From positions 1-35,036 of the forward strand of contig JANQEX010000038.1 in NCBI GenBank assembly GCA_028278105.1: a stretch of DNA of 35,036 bases. The letters are read 5' to 3'. Numbering within the stretch: position 1 is the first letter of the stretch; every line of letters begins with the position of its first letter. This stretch comes from Alphaproteobacteria bacterium (GTDB lineage: Bacteria > Pseudomonadota > Alphaproteobacteria > UBA9219 > RGZA01). Shown here piece by piece: positions 1,407 through 13,649 of the stretch. The position numbers and the translations under genes were made by a program. The notes under the pieces were generated by a model, which searched no databases, was not told the DNA's origin, and saw nothing but the letters and a program-made list of their open reading frames with translations.

Positions 1407-4274
1407 TCAGCCGGTGGCTTTTTTGCGCTGCGGAAAACCGGGCAGATGGCTCTTAAGATACTGCCCGGTATGGCTTTCGGGACAGGCGGCCAGTTCTTCG
1501 GGCGTGCCGGCCGCCACGATTTCGCCTCCCTTGTCGCCGCCTTCGGGGCCGAGGTCGATGATCCAGTCGGCGGTCTTGATGACGTCCAGATTATGCTCGA
1601 TCACCAGCACCGTATTGCCCGGACCGGTAAGGGCGTGAAGGACTTCCAGCAGCTTGCGCACATCTTCAAAGTGCAGGCCGGTGGTGGGCTCGTCGAGAAT
1701 GTAAAGGGTTTTGCCGGTGCCGCGCCTGGAAAGTTCCTTGGCCAGCTTCACACGCTGCGCCTCGCCGCCCGAAAGGGTGGTGGCGTTCTGGCCGATGGCC
1801 ATGTAGCCAAGGCCGACCCGGTTCAGCATCGCCAGCTTGTCACGAATTGAAGGAACGGCCTCGAACAGGGCCAGGCCCTCCTCGACCGTCATGTTCAGGA
1901 CATCGCTGATGCTTTTGCCCTTCCAGGTCACTTCCAGCGTTTCGCGGTTATAGCGCTTGCCGCCGCAGGCATCGCAGGTCACATACACATCGGGAAGGAA
2001 ATGCATCTCGATGCGCAGCACCCCGCCGCCCTCGCAGGCCTCGCAACGCCCGCCCTTCACGTTGAACGAAAAACGCCCCGGCCCATAGCCGCGCGCCTTC
2101 GCTTCGGGCAAATTCGCAAACCAGTCGCGGATGGGGGTGAAGGCGCCGGTATAGGTGGCGGGGTTGGAGCGCGGCGTGCGTCCGATGGGCGACTGGTCGA
2201 TGTCGATCACCTTGTCGATGAATTGCAGTCCGCGAAGTTCCTTGTGCGGATCGGGAATATCGCGCGCGTCATGCAGCTTGCGGGCGAGGGCGCGATACAG
2301 CGTTTCCAGGACAAGGGTTGATTTGCCGCTGCCCGAAACGCCCGTGACGCAGGTCAGCGTGCCCAGCGGCACTTTCAGGTGGACGTTCTTCAGGTTGTTG
2401 CCGGTGGCGCCGGTCACCTCCACGCACGCGCCCTTGCGGCCCCCGCGGCGGACAACCGGCACGGCGATCCGCCTTTTGCCGGCCAGATAGGCGGCGGTGA
2501 GACTGTGGGGATTGCCCTCAACCTCTTCCGGCGGGCCCTGCGCCACGACATGCCCGCCATGAAGCCCCGCGCCGGGGCCCATGTCGATCAGATGATCGGC
2601 GGAGCGGATGGCGTCCTCGTCATGCTCCACCACCAGCACGCTGTTGCCGAGGTCGCGCAGCCGGGTCAGGGTTTGCAACAGGCGGTGATTGTCGCGCTGA
2701 TGCAGGCCGATGGAGGGCTCGTCCAGCACATACAGCACGCCCGTCAGGCCCGATCCGATTTGCGAGGCCAGGCGGATGCGCTGGCCTTCTCCGCCCGACA
2801 GCGTGCCGGAATGGCGCGCGAGCGTCAGGTAATCCAGCCCCACATCCATCAGAAAGCCGAGCCGTTCCTGAATTTCCTTCAGCACGCGGGCGGCGATCTC
2901 GCGTTGCTTTTTGCTCAAGTCTTTGGGCAGATCCGCAAACCAGGCCTGCGCCCTGGCAATGGAAAGCCCGCAAATCCCGGCGATGGGCTTGCCGGCGATC
3001 TTGACGGTGAGGGCTTCGGGCTTCAGCCGCGCGCCGTGGCAGGCCTCGCACGGCCGGGTGGTTTGGTAGCGCGCCATGTCCTCGCGCCGCCAGTTGCTTT
3101 CGGTCTGGCGGAACAGCCGGTCGAGATTGGGGATCACGCCCTCGAACGGCTTTTCCGATTTCCAGCGGCGCTTGCCGTCGGTGTAGGCGATGGCGACGGC
3201 CTCATCGCCCGTGCCATGCAAAATGACGTGCTTCAGTTTCGGGCTCAACGCGCGCCAGGGCGTGGTGACGCTGCCGCCGAAATGTCTCACAAGGCCTTCC
3301 AGAGCCTGAAGCTGGAAAGTCATGTAGGCCGAATGCCAGGGCGCGATGGCGCCGTCGCGGATGCTGAGCCTGTCATCCGGCACCACAAGCTGCGGGTCGA
3401 ACAGCAGCTTCTCGCCAAGCCCGTCGCATTCCGGGCAGGCGCCATGCGGGCTGTTGAAGGAGAAGAGCCGCGGCTCCACCTCGTCCAGCGTAAAGCCGGA
3501 GACCGGGCAGGCGAATTTGGAGGAGAAGACATGCCGCTTGCCCGACGGCGTTTCCTCGGCATACAGCAGGCCGTCGGCGAGTTTCAGCGCGGTTTCGATT
3601 GAATCGGGCAGGCGGTTGCCCATGTCGGGGCGGACCACAAGACGGTCCACCACCACCTCGATATCATGCCTTGTTTTTTTGTTGAGGGTGGGCAGGGCGT
3701 CCATCTCGTGAAGCGCGCCGTCGATCTTCACGCGCGCGAAGCCCTTGCGCTGAAGCTCCTGCAGCTCCTTTTTGTATTCGCCCTTGCGCCCGCGCACGAC
3801 GGGAGCCAGAAGCAGAATCCTCGTTCCCTCCGGCAGGGCCGAAATGCGGTCCACCATCTGGCTGACGGTCTGGCTTTCAATGGGCAGGCCCGTGGCGGGC
3901 GAGGTGGGAACGCCGATGCGTGCCCAGAGCAGGCGCATATAGTCGTAAATCTCCGTCACCGTGCCCACGGTGGAGCGCGGGTTGCGCGAGGTGGTTTTCT
4001 GCTCGATGGAGATGGCGGGCGACAACCCGTCGATGTGGTCCACATCGGGCTTTTGCATCATCTCAAGGAACTGGCGGGCGTAGGCGGACAGGCTTTCCAC
4101 ATAGCGCCGCTGCCCTTCGGCATAGATGGTGTCGAACGCCAGCGACGACTTGCCCGATCCCGAAAGCCCGGTGATCACCACCAGCCGGTTCTTGGGAATG
4201 GCGACGTCGAGATTTTTCAGGTTGTGCTCGCGCGCGCCGCGAACATGAAGGACGCTGTCGGCTGGTTTTGGCAT
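1407..4274 (-). CDS. uvrA: Excinuclease ABC subunit A
   Basis: [35 protein letters not shown], two ABC signature motifs (LSGGE), zinc-finger CxxC motifs. Confidence 0.98.
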
Positions 4275-4416
4275 GAAATGTCGCTATCCACGGCGTCCCG
4301 GCCCCATCGCCGGCCCGCCGCGCGTCTAACTTAAGGTTCGGGCGGAAAAGTTCAATCGGCATGAAAAACAACAGAATTCCCCTCCCTCCGGGAGGGATTA
4401 GGGGAGGGTCTGCGAA

Positions 4417-4480
4417 AAGGGTCGAAGGGGTCACAAGGGTCAGGAGGGTCAAGGACCCTTTTGACCCTTACGACCCTTTA
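4417..4480. repeat. AGGGTCANN 9-nt repeats followed by inverted TGACCCTTNN copies, locus 1
   Basis: AAGGGTCGAAGGGGTCACAAGGGTCAGGAGGGTCAAGGACCCTTTTGACCCTTACGACCCTTT; related array at 25863-25937. Confidence 0.75.
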
Positions 4481-4703
4481 TGCCCCTCCATGATCCCTCC
4501 CCCTTGCCCCTCTCCGCCTTCGCTCTTCGAGCTTCGGCGGACGAGCTATCCTCAAGGACCCGCCGTAGCTTTAGCGAAGGCGGGCCAAAGGGAGGGGCTT
4601 TTTGGTTTTGCTCATGGCCGCCTTTTTGACTGATGGCAGGCTACTAGCCAAACCTTTCGGCCTTCCCTATACTCGCATATCCCATTCAACAGCAGGTGCA
4701 ACC

Positions 4704-5177
4704 ATGGCAGGAAGCGTAAACAAGGTTATTCTGGTGGGCAATCTGGGCCGCGATCCCGAAGTCCGGTCGTTCCAGAACGGCGGGCGCGTGGCGCGCCTGT
4801 CGCTGGCCACCTCGGAAAGCTGGAAGGACAGGAATTCCGGCGAGCGCAAGGAAAAAACCGAATGGCACCGCGTGGAGATCTATAACGACAAGCTGGTGGA
4901 CGTGGCCGAGCGTTACCTGAAGAAAGGAACCAAGGTCTTTGTGGAAGGCCAGTTGGAAACCCAGAAATACACCGACAAGGAAGGCAACGACCGTTACTCC
5001 ACCGTGGTGGCGCTACGCCCCTTCCGCGGCGATTTCACCATTCTGGACAGCAAGGGCGGCGGCGGCAACGATAACGCGCCGGGCGATTACGCGGGCGCCG
5101 GCTCCGGCGGATCGTCCCCTGGCGGCGGCGCGCCCGCGCGCGGCGGCGGCGATCTTGATGACGAAATTCCGTTCTAG
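4704..5177 (+). CDS. ssb: Single-stranded DNA-binding protein
   Basis: MAGSVNKVILVGNLGRDPEVR...WHRVEIYNDKL..., Gly-rich linker and acidic tail DLDDEIPF; start chosen at 4704 inside the longer 4602 ORF. Confidence 0.97.
   Translation: MAGSVNKVILVGNLGRDPEVRSFQNGGRVARLSLATSESWKDRNSGERKEKTEWHRVEIYNDKLVDVAERYLKKGTKVFVEGQLETQKYTDKEGNDRYSTVVALRPFRGDFTILDSKGGGGNDNAPGDYAGAGSGGSSPGGGAPARGGGDLDDEIPF
5107..5140 (+). repeat. 34-bp block of the ssb linker-coding region, original copy
   Basis: gcggatcgtcccctggcggcggcgcgcccgcgcg, identical to 5498-5531. Confidence 0.9.
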
Positions 5178-5456
5178 GGTCTGGTCTGAATTAAACAGGT
5201 ATTTCATTCAAAAAACTGCTTCTCACCCCGGCCCCCGCTTTCGCGGGGGTAAACTCCAGCCGGGGTCCAGCATGTTGCCTTCGGCAACATGCAACCGCCG
5301 AAGGCGGTTGCTGGATTCCGGCTTCTCCGCCTCCGCAAAGCTACGGCGCGACGGGTGCGCCAAGACCTCGGCGTAGCCGCCAGGCGAAGCCGGGCGCCGG
5401 AATGAGCAGTGATCTGTTTGATTTGATCCATTTCTAATTGAGTTCAGACCCTAGTC
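5174..5456. repeat. MITE-like palindromic element abutting the ssb stop codon
   Basis: Approximate terminal inverted repeats TCTAGGGTCTGGTCTGAATTAA / AATTGAGTTCAGACCCTAGT; inner multi-hairpin structure at 5260-5321. Confidence 0.5.
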
Positions 5457-5531: not shown

Positions 5532-5760
5532 AAATTGAGTCCAGACTCTAATAAACTAGGCCCCCGCTTTCGCGGGGGCGCTTGGGTTTGGAACCCCCGC
5601 TTCTCCGCCTCCGCAAGCTTCGACGCGACGGGTGCGCCAAGACCTCGGCGTAGCCGCAGGCGAAGCCGGGCGCGGGAATGTACATATGGGAAATTCCCAT
5701 ACGAGAATTATTTGGTTTTGCTGGGGTCCCATGAAATGACTCACCCCGAAAACATGGGCC

Positions 5761-7002: not shown

Positions 7003-10000
7003 ATGTTCATCCATCTCCGCGCGCACAGCTCCTATTCGCTGCTGGAAGGGGCGATTGGGACCAAAAACCTGGTTCGCCTCGCCAGGGAGGCGGGGATGCC
7101 CGCCATCGCGCTGACCGACACGGGCAATATGTTCGGCGCCCTCGAATTTGCGATGGAGGCGGTGGAGGCGGGCATTCAGCCCATCATCGGCAGCCTGATC
7201 GCATTGCGCGATGTGGCCCCTCGCAAAAACGGCAATGAGCCGCAAAAATTCCTGCCCCTTCTGGCCCGCGACAAGAAGGGCTATCGCAACCTTATGGCGC
7301 TTTCCAGCGCCTCCTGGCTGGAGGCGGCGGGCGAGGGGGAGGCGTTCATCACCCTTCCCATGCTTCAGAAAAGAACCGACGGCCTCATCGCGCTCACCGG
7401 CGGGCCCACGGGACCCGTCGGCCGGTTCCTGCTGGATGGGCAGGATGAAGCGGCCGAGGCATTGCTGCTCACGTTGAAAGAGCTTTTTCCCGAACGTCTG
7501 TATGTGGAAATCCAGCGCCACGGCGAAGGCGAGTTCGCCGAGCGCGAGGACCGCACCGAAAGCGCGTTCGTCGATCTTGCCTACAAGCACGGCCTGCCGC
7601 TTCTGGCCACCAACGACATCCTGTTCGCCGGCGAGAGCATGTTCGAGGCGCATGACGCGCTGATCTGCATCGCCGCCAAGGGCCATTATGTGAACGAAAC
7701 CGGCCGCCCGCGCGTCACCCGCCATCACCGCTTCAAAACAGCGGCGGAGATGGAGGCGCTGTTCGCCGATCTGCCCGAAGCGGTTGCGAATACGCGGGTG
7801 GTGGCGCAACGCTGTAGCTGGTGGCCGAAAAAGACCACGCCCATTCTGCCGCCCTTCGAAACCGCGTCGGACCGCAACAAGGAGGACGAGCTTCGCGCGC
7901 AGGCGGTGGAGGGGCTGTCCGCCCGCCTTTCCGCCGTCCCGTCCATCACCGACCATGAAGGCTACCGCAAGCGGCTGGATTACGAGCTGGACGTGATTAG
8001 CGCCATGGGCTTCGCGGGGTATTTCCTGATCGTGGCCGACTTCATCAAATGGGCCAAGGCGCGCGATATTCCGGTGGGACCGGGGCGCGGTTCGGGCGTG
8101 GGATCGCTGGTGGCCTGGGCGTTGACGATCACCGACCTTGATCCCATTCCGCTGAACCTGCTGTTCGAGCGTTTCCTGAATCCCGAACGAGTCTCGATGC
8201 CCGATTTCGATATCGACTTCTGCCAGGAGCGGCGCGACGAGGTCATCGCCTATGTGCAGCAGCGCTATGGGGCCGAGCGCGTCGCGCAGATCATCACCTT
8301 CGGCAAGCTCCAGGCCCGCGCCGTGCTGCGCAATGTGGGCCGCGTGCTGGGCATGCCGCTGGGCTATGTCGACAAAATCTGCAAGCTGGTGCCGTTCAAC
8401 CCCGCCAATCCCGTCTTGCTGAAAGACGCGGTGGAAGGCGAGCCGGCTCTCGCCGCCCTGCGCGACAGCGACCCGGCGGTGGCCCGCCTGATCGATATAT
8501 CGCTCAAGCTGGAGGGGCTTTATGCCCATGCCTCCACCCATGCCGCGGGCCTCGTGATCGGCGACCGGCCGCTGCCGCAACTCGTGCCGCTTTACCGCGA
8601 TCCGCGCGCGCCCCTGCCCGTCACCCAGTTCAGCATGAAAACGGTGGAGCTTGCGGGCCTTGTGAAATTCGACTTCCTCGGACTCAAGACGCTCTCGGTT
8701 TTGCAGCAGGCCTGCGACATCGTGAAAAAGGTGGAAGGGGTGGAGATTGATCTCTCGCATCTGCCGCTGGAAGATGCGCCGGCCTATGCCATGCTCGCGC
8801 GCGGCGAAACGCTGGGGGTGTTCCAGCTTGAAGGTTCCGGCATGCGCGACACGCTGCGCCGCCTGAAGCCCACGCGGTTCGAGGATATCATCGCCCTTGT
8901 CGCCCTCTACCGTCCGGGGCCGATGGACAATATTCCCAAATACATCAAGGTGAAGAACGGCGCGGAACGGCCCGATTACCTTCACCCCCTGCTGGAGCCG
9001 GTGCTGAAAGAAACCTACGGCATCGCCATTTATCAGGAACAGGTCATGCAGATCGCGCAGGTGCTCTCCGGCTACACGCTCGGCGCCGCCGATCTGCTGC
9101 GCCGCGCCATGGGCAAGAAGAACAAGAGGGAAATGGCCGCGCAGCGCAAGAATTTCATCCGCGGCGCGGGCGAGAAGGGCGTGCCCGCCAATCAGGCCGA
9201 AATGATTTTCGAGCAGGTGGACAAGTTCGCGGGCTACGGCTTCAACAAATCGCACGCCGCGGCTTACGCGATGATCGCCTGGCGCACGGCCTGGCTGAAG
9301 GCGCATCATCCGGTGGCGTTCTATGCCGCCTCCATGACCTTCGACATGGGCTCGACCGACAAGCTGAACATTTTCCGGCAGGAACTGCTGCGGCTTGGCA
9401 TTCCGCTTCTGCCGCCCGACGTCAACCGCTCGACCGGCGTCTTTTCGGTGGAAAAGACGGACGGAAAAATGTGTATCCGCTACGCGCTGGCGGCGGTGAA
9501 GGGCGTGGGGCTGGAAGCGATGAAGGCTCTGGTGGCCGAGCGCGAGGCGAACGGCCCCTACACGGACCTGTTCGATTTCGCCGGCCGCCTGGACGGCAAG
9601 GTCATCAACAAAAGGCAGATGGAAAGCCTGATTTGCGCGGGCGCGTTCGACAGCCTTGATTCCAGCCGCGCGCGGGTGATGGAAAATGTGGAGCTTCTGG
9701 TGCGCCTGGCCGGCCATGCGGCGCATGAGCGCGAGGTGGGGCAGGCCAGCCTCTTCGCCGCCGCGCCGCAGCCGGCGGCCCGGCCCGCCTTGCGCGAGGT
9801 CAGGCCATGGGCGGACCTTGAGCGGCTGCAAAAGGAATTCGGCGCGCTTGGCTTTTATCTGTCGGCGCACCCGCTGGATGCCTTCCGGCCCCTGCTGGAG
9901 CGTTTGGGCGCCGTGCGCGCCGCGCAGCTTGGCGAGGCGGCGGGGGCGAGCGGATCACAACGCCGCAAGATCGCGGGCATTCTGGTTTCAAGGCAGGAGC

Positions 10001-10440
10001 GCACCGCCAAATCCGGCAACCGCTTTGCCTTCGCGCAGTTCTCCGACATGACCGGGCTGTTCGAGGTGACGGTTTTCTCGGAAATCCTGAACGCCAGCCG
10101 CGAGATGCTGACCACCGGCGCGCCGCTTCTTCTCACGGTGGATGTTCAGGGCGCGCCGCAGGAATACCGCCTCACCCTGCAACAGGTGGAGCGGCTTGAC
10201 GACGTCGCGGCGCGCGAAAGCCAGGGGCTGATGCTGGTGCTTGGCAACGGGGAAGGATTGGCGGCGGCCTCGAATCTCATCGGCAAAACGCCGCGCGGCA
10301 AAAGCCGCGTTCACCTGCTGGTGGATCTGGACGGCGAGGAAGAGGCCGAAATCGCCCTCCCCGGCGGCTTTGCCCTCTCGGCCGAATTGCGCCATTCCCT
10401 CAAGGCCCTGCCGGGCGTTCTTGACGTGCAGGATTTGTAA
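7003..10440 (+). CDS. dnaE: DNA polymerase III subunit alpha
   Basis: [19 protein letters not shown] N-terminus, [57 protein letters not shown]. Confidence 0.98.
   Translation: [1145 protein letters not shown]
10410..10440 (+). repeat. dnaE 3'-end 31-bp repeat, copy 1 (inside dnaE)
   Basis: gccgggcgttcttgacgtgcaggatttgtaa. Confidence 0.95.
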
Positions 10441-10470
10441 GCGAAACAGTTTTGTGCTATACATAATTTC

Positions 10471-10797
10471 ATGAAATTCGAAGTTCCCAATTCGCTGGAA
10501 GCGAAGATTGTCGATCACGCCAGGGCCGCCGGTCTTTCGGTGGAAGATTTTCTGCGGAAAGCCATTATTGAGAAAATCGAAAGTGTCGAAGAAAACATTG
10601 CGGCGGTCGAAGCGATAACCTCCGCGTCCCGCTCGCTCAGCCGGGAAGAAATCCTGAAAATCGTCATGAAAGGCGATTATCCAAATGACGAGGAAATAGC
10701 GCGGGCCGTTGCCGAAGACCCCGACGCGCCGCCCCTGCTTGATTACGAAACCATGAAGCAGAATTACAAGCCTATGCCGCCGCTCAAGCGGGTGTAG
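10471..10797 (+). CDS. Putative antitoxin of BrnT-type TA cassette 1
   Basis: Short protein immediately upstream of a BrnT-like ORF; C-terminus AEDPDAPPLLDYETMKQNYKPMPPL shared with the cassette 2 antitoxin. Confidence 0.7.
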   Translation: MKFEVPNSLEAKIVDHARAAGLSVEDFLRKAIIEKIESVEENIAAVEAITSASRSLSREEILKIVMKGDYPNDEEIARAVAEDPDAPPLLDYETMKQNYKPMPPLKRV

Positions 10798-10807
10798 GAA
10801 GGCGTCC

Positions 10808-11088
10808 ATGTTCGAATGGAACAAGGAGAAGGCGCGGCTTAACGAGAAAAAGCATGGAGTCGGTTTCAGCGAAGCGGCACAGATATTTTTTACCCCCTAT
10901 TTTGCCATGGAAGACAAGCGCAGGGAGTATGGGGAAATCCGCTTCAACGCGCCCTTGGGTGTTCCTCCCAAAACATGCTGCGCGTGACTTATACCTTTCG
11001 TGAAGGCGCCATTCGCATTATTTCCGCGCGAAAAGCCAATTCCGCTGAAAAGAAAATCTATCTGGAAAGTCTCAAGGAAAACGAATAG
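10808..11088 (+). pseudogene. BrnT-like toxin of cassette 1, apparently frameshifted
   Basis: MFEWNKEKARLNEKKHGVGFSEAAQIFFTP...RREYGEIRFNA in frame 1, then MLRVTYTFREGAIRIISARKANSAEKKIYLESLKENE* in another frame; the shift lies near the A-run at 10970-10973. Confidence 0.7.
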
Positions 11089-11105
11089 GCGCATGGAAAA
11101 GCCCG

Positions 11106-11136
11106 GCCGGGCGTTCCTGACGTGCAGGATTTGTAA
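11106..11136 (+). repeat. dnaE 3'-end repeat, copy 2
   Basis: gccgggcgttcctgacgtgcaggatttgtaa; one mismatch to copy 1. Confidence 0.95.
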
Positions 11137-11188
11137 AATCTTTTTGAATGCGCTATTCTTTATCATGAAGAATCGGAGAGCTACGGCC

Positions 11189-11437
11189 ATGAACATCGAA
11201 CTTTCAAAGGAAGTCGAAAAGAAAATCCGCAGCATGGCGGAGAAGCTCGGCCTCAAGCCCGAAGAACTCGCCTTGGGATTTGTTGAGGAAAAAGTAAAAG
11301 GGCTTGAAGGCATTTACCCGTCTGACGCCGTTCTCGCCGCGCAGATTGCGCAAGACCCGGACTCCCCTCCACTTCTTGATTACGAGACGCTCAAAAAGAC
11401 CTTCAAGCCCATGCCACCCCTTGATCAACTGGATTAG
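11189..11437 (+). CDS. Putative antitoxin of BrnT-type TA cassette 2
   Basis: MNIELSKEVEKKIRSMAEKLGLKPEELALGF...AQDPDSPPLLDYETLKKTFKPMPPLDQLD; 2 nt upstream of a BrnT ORF. Confidence 0.7.
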   Translation: MNIELSKEVEKKIRSMAEKLGLKPEELALGFVEEKVKGLEGIYPSDAVLAAQIAQDPDSPPLLDYETLKKTFKPMPPLDQLD

Positions 11438-11439
11438 GC

Positions 11440-11715
11440 ATGGAGTTTGAATGGGACCCCGAAAAGAATCTCAAGAACATCTACCGGCACGGCATCCCTT
11501 TTGACCGTGCCGCGGAAATTTTTTCGTCTCCCTGCCTGTATTTCGTCGATACGCGCCGGGACTATGGAGAGAAAAGATATAATGCTCTTGGCGTCAGTCA
11601 GAAAGTCGTGATGAACGTTACGTTTGTGCGCAGAGGCGCAAAAACACGGATTATTTCAGCAAGACTGGCGGGACAGCATGAGCGGCGCGCTTACCGCGAG
11701 TGGGCTGGTGAATAA
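11440..11715 (+). CDS. BrnT-like toxin, cassette 2
   Basis: MEFEWDPEKNLKNIYRHGIPFDRAAEIF...DYGEKRYNALGV...RIISARLAGQHERRAY: BrnT (DUF497) signature. Confidence 0.88.
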   Translation: MEFEWDPEKNLKNIYRHGIPFDRAAEIFSSPCLYFVDTRRDYGEKRYNALGVSQKVVMNVTFVRRGAKTRIISARLAGQHERRAYREWAGE

Positions 11716-11725
11716 ATCCATGTCC

Positions 11726-11756
11726 GCCGGGCGTTCCTGACGTGCAGGATTTGTAG
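11726..11756 (+). repeat. dnaE 3'-end repeat, copy 3
   Basis: gccgggcgttcctgacgtgcaggatttgtag; differs from copy 2 only at the last base. Confidence 0.95.
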
Positions 11757-11818: not shown

Positions 11819-12433
11819 TCAAGACGGAAAAGCGCCTTCCGGCGGGCGTTTCCAGTGGATCGGTTGAGGCTTCCGTGTCTCAAGAAAATTCACCAGATTC
11901 TGGAGGTCAGGACCAACAGGCTTCGGCGCTTTAACGACAAACCTCTTGATGGATGACCAGGCCTGTTTCCACAACCCGCTTCTTTTGAGATCTTTCTGCC
12001 TGATATCGTGAGCGGAGTTGGTGACCTGCGTCCTGTCCGTGCGCAAGATCCCGCTGACATAGGCACGCATTTTTTCTTCGGCCTGCCACCACTGTTCACT
12101 TCCTGGGAGCAAGTCCTTCATGACCTTATAAACAAAATTAACGCCCCACGCCTTGTCCGTCTCCGCGCTCTCGTCGGCGTAGGCCCACATGTTTCGTTCG
12201 GCATCATTCTCCAGGTTGCTTCCTTTGGGTGCAGCGTTCCTGGCTCTCAAGGCAAACTCGGCAGCCTCAATTTTATTCTCCAAAAAGCCGGCCAGTCCGA
12301 AAAAGACTTTCGGGAAACGTGGATCGGCGAAGTGCTCCTCACTATTGAGAAGGGCTTTAAGACAGGCATAAATCCCTGTTTGGTCCCTGGAAGTCACAGC
12401 CTCCTGGGCAAATCCGAAAAAGCCGTTACCCAT
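11819..12433 (-). CDS. Hypothetical protein (204 aa)
   Basis: ORF with plausible composition; no family recognised. Confidence 0.6.
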   Translation of the reverse strand: MGNGFFGFAQEAVTSRDQTGIYACLKALLNSEEHFADPRFPKVFFGLAGFLENKIEAAEFALRARNAAPKGSNLENDAERNMWAYADESAETDKAWGVNFVYKVMKDLLPGSEQWWQAEEKMRAYVSGILRTDRTQVTNSAHDIRQKDLKRSGLWKQAWSSIKRFVVKAPKPVGPDLQNLVNFLETRKPQPIHWKRPPEGAFPS

Positions 12434-12660
12434 GTAAAGCTCCTTCGTCTGAATAAAAAATCACCGGCGGCAATATGCCAAAATCCTTCCCGGCATCGCG
12501 CGTTCGCATGCATCGTATAGTAGCCTTGAGACTGACAAGGAAGGTTTTTTTTACTTTCAACTAATGGGAGCAGGAGTTCTTGAGGCGCGGGGTTTGTGGT
12601 TAATATTAAGGGCCCCTTGCTTTCACCCGGCGAACTCCCTAAAACAGCGCCAACTCACAT

Positions 12661-12783
12661 CCTGCCGTGAACGACAGGGACCGGGCGGAAAAACCGGTCC
12701 TCGCGTTTCCGGTGTCCCGCCACTTGACTTGCCGGAACCACCTTATCAACAAGGCCGGGTCCGAAGGCAAGTTAAGTGGCGGG
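12661..12783 (+). promoter_or_regulatory. Structured 5' leader of rpsB (three consecutive hairpins)
   Basis: CCTG/CAGG hairpin; GGACCGG-gcggaaaaa-CCGGTCC (12678-12700); 18-bp stem CCCGCCACTTGACTTGCC (12716-12733) / GGCAAGTTAAGTGGCGGG (12766-12783) with one G-U pair. Confidence 0.65.
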
Positions 12784-12827
12784 ATGCAATTGCGGCAGGA
12801 GACGCTTAACCGGAGAAAGGACACAAC

Positions 12828-13649
12828 ATGGCCGAGTTGCCATCATTCACCATGCGTCAGCTCATGGAAGCGGGCGTGCATTTTGGTCACCACACCCGCC
12901 GCTGGAATCCGAAAATGGCTTCCTACCTTTTCGGTGTGCGGAACAATGTTCACATCATTGATCTTGAGCAGACGGTGCCGCTGCTTTACCGCGCGCTGAA
13001 TGCCGTTCAAAGCGTGGTGTCACAAGGCGGGCGCGTGCTGTTTGTCGGCACCAAGCACCAGGCGCAGGATATCGTCGCCAGGGCCGCGAAGCATTGCGGC
13101 CAGTATTACGTGAACAGCCGCTGGCTGGGCGGCACGCTCACCAACTGGAAGACCATTTCCAATTCCATCAAGCGCCTGCGCGACATTGAAACACAGATCA
13201 CCGAGCAGGCCGAAAAGCTCACCAAGAAGGAACTGCTTCAGCTTACCCGCGAGCAGGCGAAGCTTGAGCAGTCCCTTGGCGGCATCAAGGACATGGGCGG
13301 CCTTCCCGACATTTTGTTCATCATCGACACCAACAAGGAAGACATCGCCGTGAAGGAGGCGCAGAAGCTGGGCATCCCTGTCGTGGCGGTTCTGGACAGC
13401 AATTCCGATCCTTCGGGCATCGCCTATCCCATTCCGGGCAACGACGACGCCATCCGCGCCATTCAGTCCTACTGCGATCTGGTGTCGGCCGCGGTGCTGG
13501 CGGGCCTTCAGGTCGAGGCCATCGCCAGCGGCGCCGATCTGGGGGCCGTCGCCGGGCCTGAGGCGGAAGCGCCTCCGGCCAACGGCAACGATGTGCCGCC
13601 GCCTCCGGCGGCGGAGGCTCCCGCGGAAACGCAGGTGGCGCAGGCGTAA
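12828..13649 (+). CDS. rpsB: 30S ribosomal protein S2
   Basis: [30 protein letters not shown]...; [24 protein letters not shown]. Confidence 0.98.

Follow-up and report, generated by a model that had tools for sequence, protein, structure and literature searches.

Toxin-antitoxin pairs between repeated copies of the dnaE 3' end suggest serial insertion of small cassettes at gene ends in Proteobacteria

In the alphaproteobacterial window analysed here, meaning the whole stretch of 35,036 nucleotides, dnaE is followed by an array of small genes separated by further copies of the end of dnaE itself. Small cassettes, including two toxin-antitoxin (TA) pairs, appear to have been inserted one after another at the 3' end of dnaE to form this array; a Campbell-like mechanism for these insertions is assigned a probability of roughly 0.55, while serial insertion accompanied by duplication of the gene end is, as a description, considerably firmer. 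Repeat-flanked TA pairs are found behind many different genes, they represent a derived state relative to empty sites in related genomes, and the right edges of the repeats coincide with stop codons. Chromosomal TA pairs are gained and lost between strains with no visible transposases, by a route that is largely unknown, and the recurrence of the same arrangement at other genes and in other Proteobacteria suggests an undescribed route by which selfish TA genes may establish themselves in chromosomes. A search of the openly available literature found no description of this gene-end arrangement for TA pairs.

The features of the locus are as follows.

7003..10440, + strand: dnaE, an intact ORF with a C-terminus conserved in relatives G002-G004; its last codons are the target
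10410..10440, + strand: repeat 1, the dnaE 3' end including the stop codon, 0 mismatches; likeness to repeat 2 reaches left to about 10402-10405
10471..10797, + strand: antitoxin 1, 108 aa, with a ribbon-helix-helix-like N-terminus and a weak RelB-like match
10808..11088, + strand: toxin 1, BrnT-type; a frameshift near 10945-10981 splits the gene
11106..11136, + strand: repeat 2, dnaE end, 1 mismatch; likeness reaches left to about 11098-11101
11165..11437, + strand: antitoxin 2, with an alternative start at the in-frame ATG 11189-11191
11440..11715, + strand: toxin 2, BrnT-type, intact, 91 aa; Pfam BrnT_toxin match at 3.2e-22
11726..11756, + strand: repeat 3, dnaE end, 2 mismatches
11819..12433, - strand: ORF3, 204 aa, without a confident family assignment; carried by an older, third unit
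12569..12599, + strand: repeat 4, a decayed dnaE end (21/31), 228 bp before rpsB
12828..13649, + strand: rpsB, the ancestral right-hand neighbour of dnaE

The order of units is thus dnaE, TA1, repeat, TA2, repeat, ORF3, repeat, rpsB. The three 31 bp copies reported by the initial annotation, with zero, one and two mismatches, were recovered exactly, as were their spacings of 696 and 620 bp. Within the 2.05 Mb genome the 31-mer has three copies, all at dnaE, where none would be expected from 100 dinucleotide shuffles, and allowing up to three mismatches in its core 25-mer revealed no further copies anywhere in that genome; with its three copies confined to a single locus, it was rejected as a repeat or att site used across the genome. 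The fourth copy is more decayed, but its score of 21/31 was reached in none of 1000 mononucleotide shuffles and in only one of 500 dinucleotide shuffles, and in the dnaE frame it reads GVLEARGLW. In G002 and other Alphaproteobacteria in which dnaE and rpsB are close neighbours, 167-267 bp separate the dnaE stop codon from rpsB. As the 228 bp between repeat 4 and rpsB is similar to this ancestral distance, repeat 4 is probably the end that dnaE had before three insertions in succession displaced it; the last repeat of the array is located where serial insertion would leave that end.

The proposal that each interval holds a single antitoxin-toxin pair is borne out, with both pairs being BrnT-type according to Pfam, and so is the contrast between diverged pairs and near-identical repeats: TA1 and TA2 share 38% identity in their antitoxins and 44-50% in their toxins, against about 97% among the repeats. 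Each half of toxin 1 has a match to Pfam BrnT_toxin (PF04365), at 3e-10 and 5e-7, and because the gene is split by the frameshift, TA1 looks inactivated. Neither antitoxin in the window matched the BrnA antitoxin domain (PF14384) in Pfam. As TA systems the pairs are ordinary, resembling the BrnT/BrnA type II systems in their toxins and differing from them in the frameshift of toxin 1 and in antitoxins that Pfam does not recognise as BrnA. ORF3 had no plasmid match and no confident family; together with a DUF7796-like gene in another genome, described below, it answers the question of whether cargo other than TA pairs occurs between such repeats. Both TA cassettes also contain a promoter-like sequence (TTGTAA-17 nt-TATACA/TATTCT, window 10434-10470 and 11130-11166), of which the candidate -35 hexamer TTGTAA falls in the final codons of the dnaE end and the predicted -10 hexamer is very close to the start codon, such that the cassette mRNA would be nearly leaderless.

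The gap between dnaE and rpsB was compared with that in related genomes. It is empty, at 267 bp, in G002, a member of the same family. In G001, from the same genus, it contains a non-homologous ParE-type pair directly followed by a copy of the dnaE end, ATGTTGGAAGTGCAGGATTTGTGA, which reads MLEVQDL*, like the DnaE terminus of the family; this copy scores 19/24 against the dnaE ends of the family, and one of 500 shuffles was as good. In G032, representing another family of the same order, a gene with a DUF7796 match slightly under the Pfam cut-off is flanked by 243 bp of that genome's own dnaE end, the copies of which are identical at 234 of 243 positions, with all eight differences over the 76 codons compared being synonymous. 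To judge from these sequences, empty, one-pair and multi-unit states exist, the cargo is unrelated, and the dnaE end is in each case the genome's own. Mobility is read from genomes compared at the level of species, among which the empty, one-pair and two-pair states lend support to the earlier suggestion of repeated insertion that regenerates the dnaE terminus.

A survey of TA loci across the order, centred on the BrnT and ParE families, compared the last 60 nt of each ORF with the following 2.2 kb; reversed queries, used as the control, gave a top score of 17. The host genome of the window, G000, was found to carry the same arrangement behind ettA, hemN, rpoN and dotB, each followed by a TA pair and then by a 35-88 bp copy of its own 3' end, and approximately ten more sites were found outside G000, both among further Alphaproteobacteria and in a second class of the phylum. 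The gene names at these sites are a reading of the translated sequences rather than annotation.

ettA, G000: BrnT-BrnA pair; end copy 34/35 bp
hemN, G000: ParE-type pair, antisense; end copy 34/35
rpoN, G000: ParE-type pair; end copy 56/68
dotB, G000: MntA-HepT; end copy 83/88; from a TA-blind scan
dinB, G026: gene-end copy 25/25
gatA, G009: gene-end duplication, the copy decayed
lpxA, G021: gene-end copy 38/38
adhC, G158: BrnTA; gene-end copy 43/46
TPP-binding enzyme gene, G043: gene-end duplication
a gene in G119: gene-end duplication, the copy without a stop codon
G051: gene-end duplication, short
FemAB-like gene, G391 (locus L371) and G415 (locus L369): BrnTA insertion with duplicated gene end

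The last two genomes represent separate species of a non-alphaproteobacterial genus in the same phylum, and each is assembled in 1-2 contigs. Across all sites the cargo consists of TA pairs of the BrnT, ParE, YafQ and MntA-HepT types, with few exceptions, namely those at pyrC in G042, at dnaE in G032 and in ORF3 of the window. At the first of these (L318, contig C30 of G042, reverse strand 4256-5085), the duplicated pyrC end surrounds a 153-codon ORF to which no family was assigned. The candidate ung site of G004 (L132) is ambiguous. In G026, a tRNA counterpart of the arrangement was also noted (L103, contig C145, about 560-1450 on the reverse strand), in which a 22 bp stretch from the 3' end of a tRNA is repeated approximately 830 bp downstream, enclosing a pseudouridine-synthase-like gene, with a BrnT pair adjoining.

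The association with TA pairs was also studied through a scan blind to their presence, covering about 390 kb of G000, or around one fifth of the genome. The convincing gene-end duplications that it detected outside the window, at ettA, rpoN and dotB, all enclose TA pairs, while the remaining high scores resembled dispersed or paralogous repeats. Seven loci with high repeat scores (L295, L302, L322, L198, L202, L207 and L192) were discarded as resembling paralogous, tandem or dispersed repeats. None of eight regions of the E. coli K-12 genome with known TA pairs was found to have a TA pair enclosed by a duplicated gene end; the single high score there (L383) comes from repetitive sequence between yafL and rayT.

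Several of the occupied sites have empty counterparts. ettA and htpG lie within about 10 bp of each other in G002 and G003; in G000, ettA is followed by BrnT, BrnA and then the 35 bp ettA-end copy, which lies 31 bp before htpG. Similarly, dotB is directly followed by icmT in several relatives, between which G000 has MntA-HepT and the copy of the dotB end. In G158, adhC is followed by BrnTA, the copy of the adhC end, and then an esterase gene read as fghA. The empty sites in relatives indicate that the insertion is the derived state, and that it is the downstream copy which sits at the native place of the gene end.

The edges of the direct repeats, which range from 15 to 243 bp in length, differ in their behaviour. 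The left edge is variable, lying 15 to 242 nt upstream, while the right edge of identity is found at the stop codon, at 0, -1, -2, -4, -1, -2, +1, +1, +4, -7, -9, -4, -2, 0, 0, 0 and -22 nt from its end, and so never past +4 nt. The stop codon is retained in both copies in nearly all cases, even where its bases differ, the exception being the copy in G119. The inserts are mostly 0.5-1.2 kb in size and occur in both orientations, and the gene-end copy often begins no more than about 15 nt after the end of the TA pair. Among the least diverged pairs of gene ends, the ratio of synonymous to nonsynonymous differences is 1:0 for ettA, 2:0 for hemN, 4:1 for dotB, 8:0 for dnaE in G032 and 3:0 for adhC, as if two functional alleles had met. 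Pooling all pairs reveals no synonymous excess (38:41, p = 0.44; gatA left out of the sum), because older copies, such as those of rpoN and gatA, have decayed; the synonymous argument thus depends on pairs selected for their low divergence.

No core sequence common to the repeats of different genes could be found. The mean pair score of 6.95, against 6.61 ± 0.13 for shuffled sequences, exceeds the controls by what is a small composition effect, and the maximum is within the shuffled range; the repeats are gene-specific, with no shared site. This argues against the initial annotation's suggestion that cassettes recombine at the 31-mer as a dedicated site, as other genes with unrelated 3' ends show the same arrangement. 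Within the 31-mer is a small dyad, which reads TCCTGACGTGCAGGA in repeats 2 and 3. Relative to 534 control gene ends, the target gene ends differ in folding energy (p = 0.009), but the hairpin enrichment is weak and their stems are not significantly longer (p = 0.17); structure-guided recombination was rejected on the basis of these stem lengths.

A search of the host genome for recombinases of the tyrosine type identified only XerC- and XerD-like proteins. As these are the only tyrosine recombinases, and as the repeats share no core, recombination through the shared gene end is the preferred model. The mobile unit would consist of a TA pair together with a copy of the end of its target gene, and would be joined to the chromosome by a Campbell-like crossover within the shared gene end during general recombination of DNA from a relative. 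At each such event an intact gene end would stay in front of the cassette, leaving the gene whole, while the resident end would be pushed behind the cassette as a short 3' end copy; loss of the cassette would then be countered by post-segregational killing. Gene conversion from dnaE, which had also been suggested, is not needed under this model, and is not favoured by repeat edges at the stop codon. Several points count against the crossover: many of the repeats, at 15-38 bp, are short for RecA; the model starts from a unit that already carries a gene end; some inserts (at dnaE in G032, at pyrC in G042, and ORF3 in the window) have no TA pair; and the mechanism is read from static genomes.

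The strongest alternative, although judged about half as probable as the crossover, is insertion in one step with a long and variable target duplication, as proposed for restriction-modification (RM) genes, in which the TA pair would enter at a staggered or template-switched break and the gene end would be duplicated. This requires no gene end to be carried on the cassette, and direct repeats of variable length around small selfish modules are what it predicts. Target duplications of RM units of around 100 bp are reported in PMC3874152 and PMC1643837, and insertion with such long, variable duplications is attributed to Nobusato et al. 2000 and Furuta et al. 2010 (see PMC1643837, PMC3031569 and PMC3874152). 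These insertions are the closest precedent for the present arrangement. The two share small addiction-type modules, the lack of a transposase and long variable direct target repeats, and both are recognised by comparing occupied with empty genomes, here at dnaE-rpsB (G002) and ettA-htpG (G002 and G003). They differ in that the cargo here is mostly TA pairs and includes no RM system, that recent copies differ at synonymous sites, and that the units stack in arrays. Furthermore, the RM target may be any sequence, whereas the repeat here is a gene 3' end; a target duplication should pass the stop codon at random, and this is not observed. Synonymous-only differences in recent pairs would also be unexpected for a fresh copy without function.

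Integration at specific att sites within gene 3' ends, by a recombinase of the tyrosine or serine type that acts in trans or has since been lost, is less probable again. Integrative elements at gene 3' ends include tRNA islands and e14 in icd. As with these, the incoming element would restore the gene end, leave the displaced end at its far side and introduce silent differences; restoration up to the stop codon with synonymous replacement is the signature of such elements, and the 22 bp tRNA repeat at L103 is also consistent with them. However, none of the cassettes inspected contains an integrase, the inserts holding TA pairs or single small genes, the host has no tyrosine recombinases beyond XerC and XerD, a different gene is used each time, and no core common to the repeats at different genes stands out from the shuffled controls beyond the composition effect. 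Integron gene cassettes, including the TA cassettes of superintegrons (PMC2654758), are similar in being single-operon units, each followed by a repeat, stacked in arrays and with TA cargo, but the integron integrase is absent from the host genome and the repeats are host gene ends that vary by locus, rather than attC.

Tandem duplication of a single TA pair with the dnaE end, followed by divergence of the TA genes while gene conversion with dnaE preserved the repeats, would account for TA1 and TA2 both being BrnT-type and distantly homologous, but it is very improbable given toxins at 44-50% identity beside repeats at 97%. The initial annotation's view that a simple tandem duplication is inadequate is upheld by the different cargo found behind dnaE in G001 (a ParE-type pair) and G032 (a DUF7796-like gene, not TA), and the pattern recurs with single cassettes at other genes. 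Although most of the genomes are metagenome-assembled and repeat lengths are close to assembler word sizes, an artefact of metagenome bins has a negligible probability, since the copies differ by substitutions and decay, the flanks match the empty sites of relatives, and the pattern is also present in genomes of 1-2 contigs (G391 and G415) and in several unrelated genomes.

A more general and decidedly tentative proposal is that Proteobacteria harbour mobile TA cassettes free of recombinases, which carry or acquire the 3' end of a target gene and enter exactly at its stop codon, with the gene end serving later cassettes in turn and killing upon loss taking the place of an integrase. Restoration of the gene end would explain how such cassettes land harmlessly behind essential genes such as dnaE. 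The footprint of a gene end, a TA pair and a gene-end copy with its edge at the stop codon is a searchable signature of recent TA insertion, which polarises occupied against empty sites and allows TA pairs to be tested as self-maintaining selfish DNA.

Two other repeats were observed in the window. Searching it against Rfam gave no match to a conserved RNA. A near-perfect inverted repeat (TCCCGCCACTTGACTTGCC / GGCAAGTTAAGTGGCGGGA, 12715-12784) is present immediately upstream of rpsB, with an equivalent in G001 (GTCCCGCCACTCAAA .. TTTGAGTGGCGGGA), while G002 and G003 differ; it is possibly an rpsB leader structure. A dispersed 39 bp repeat (AAGCTACGGCGCGACGGGTGCGCCAAGACCTCGGCGTAG) is found at 5338-5376 and 5614-5653, inside a longer repeat block of a type that is common in the genome.
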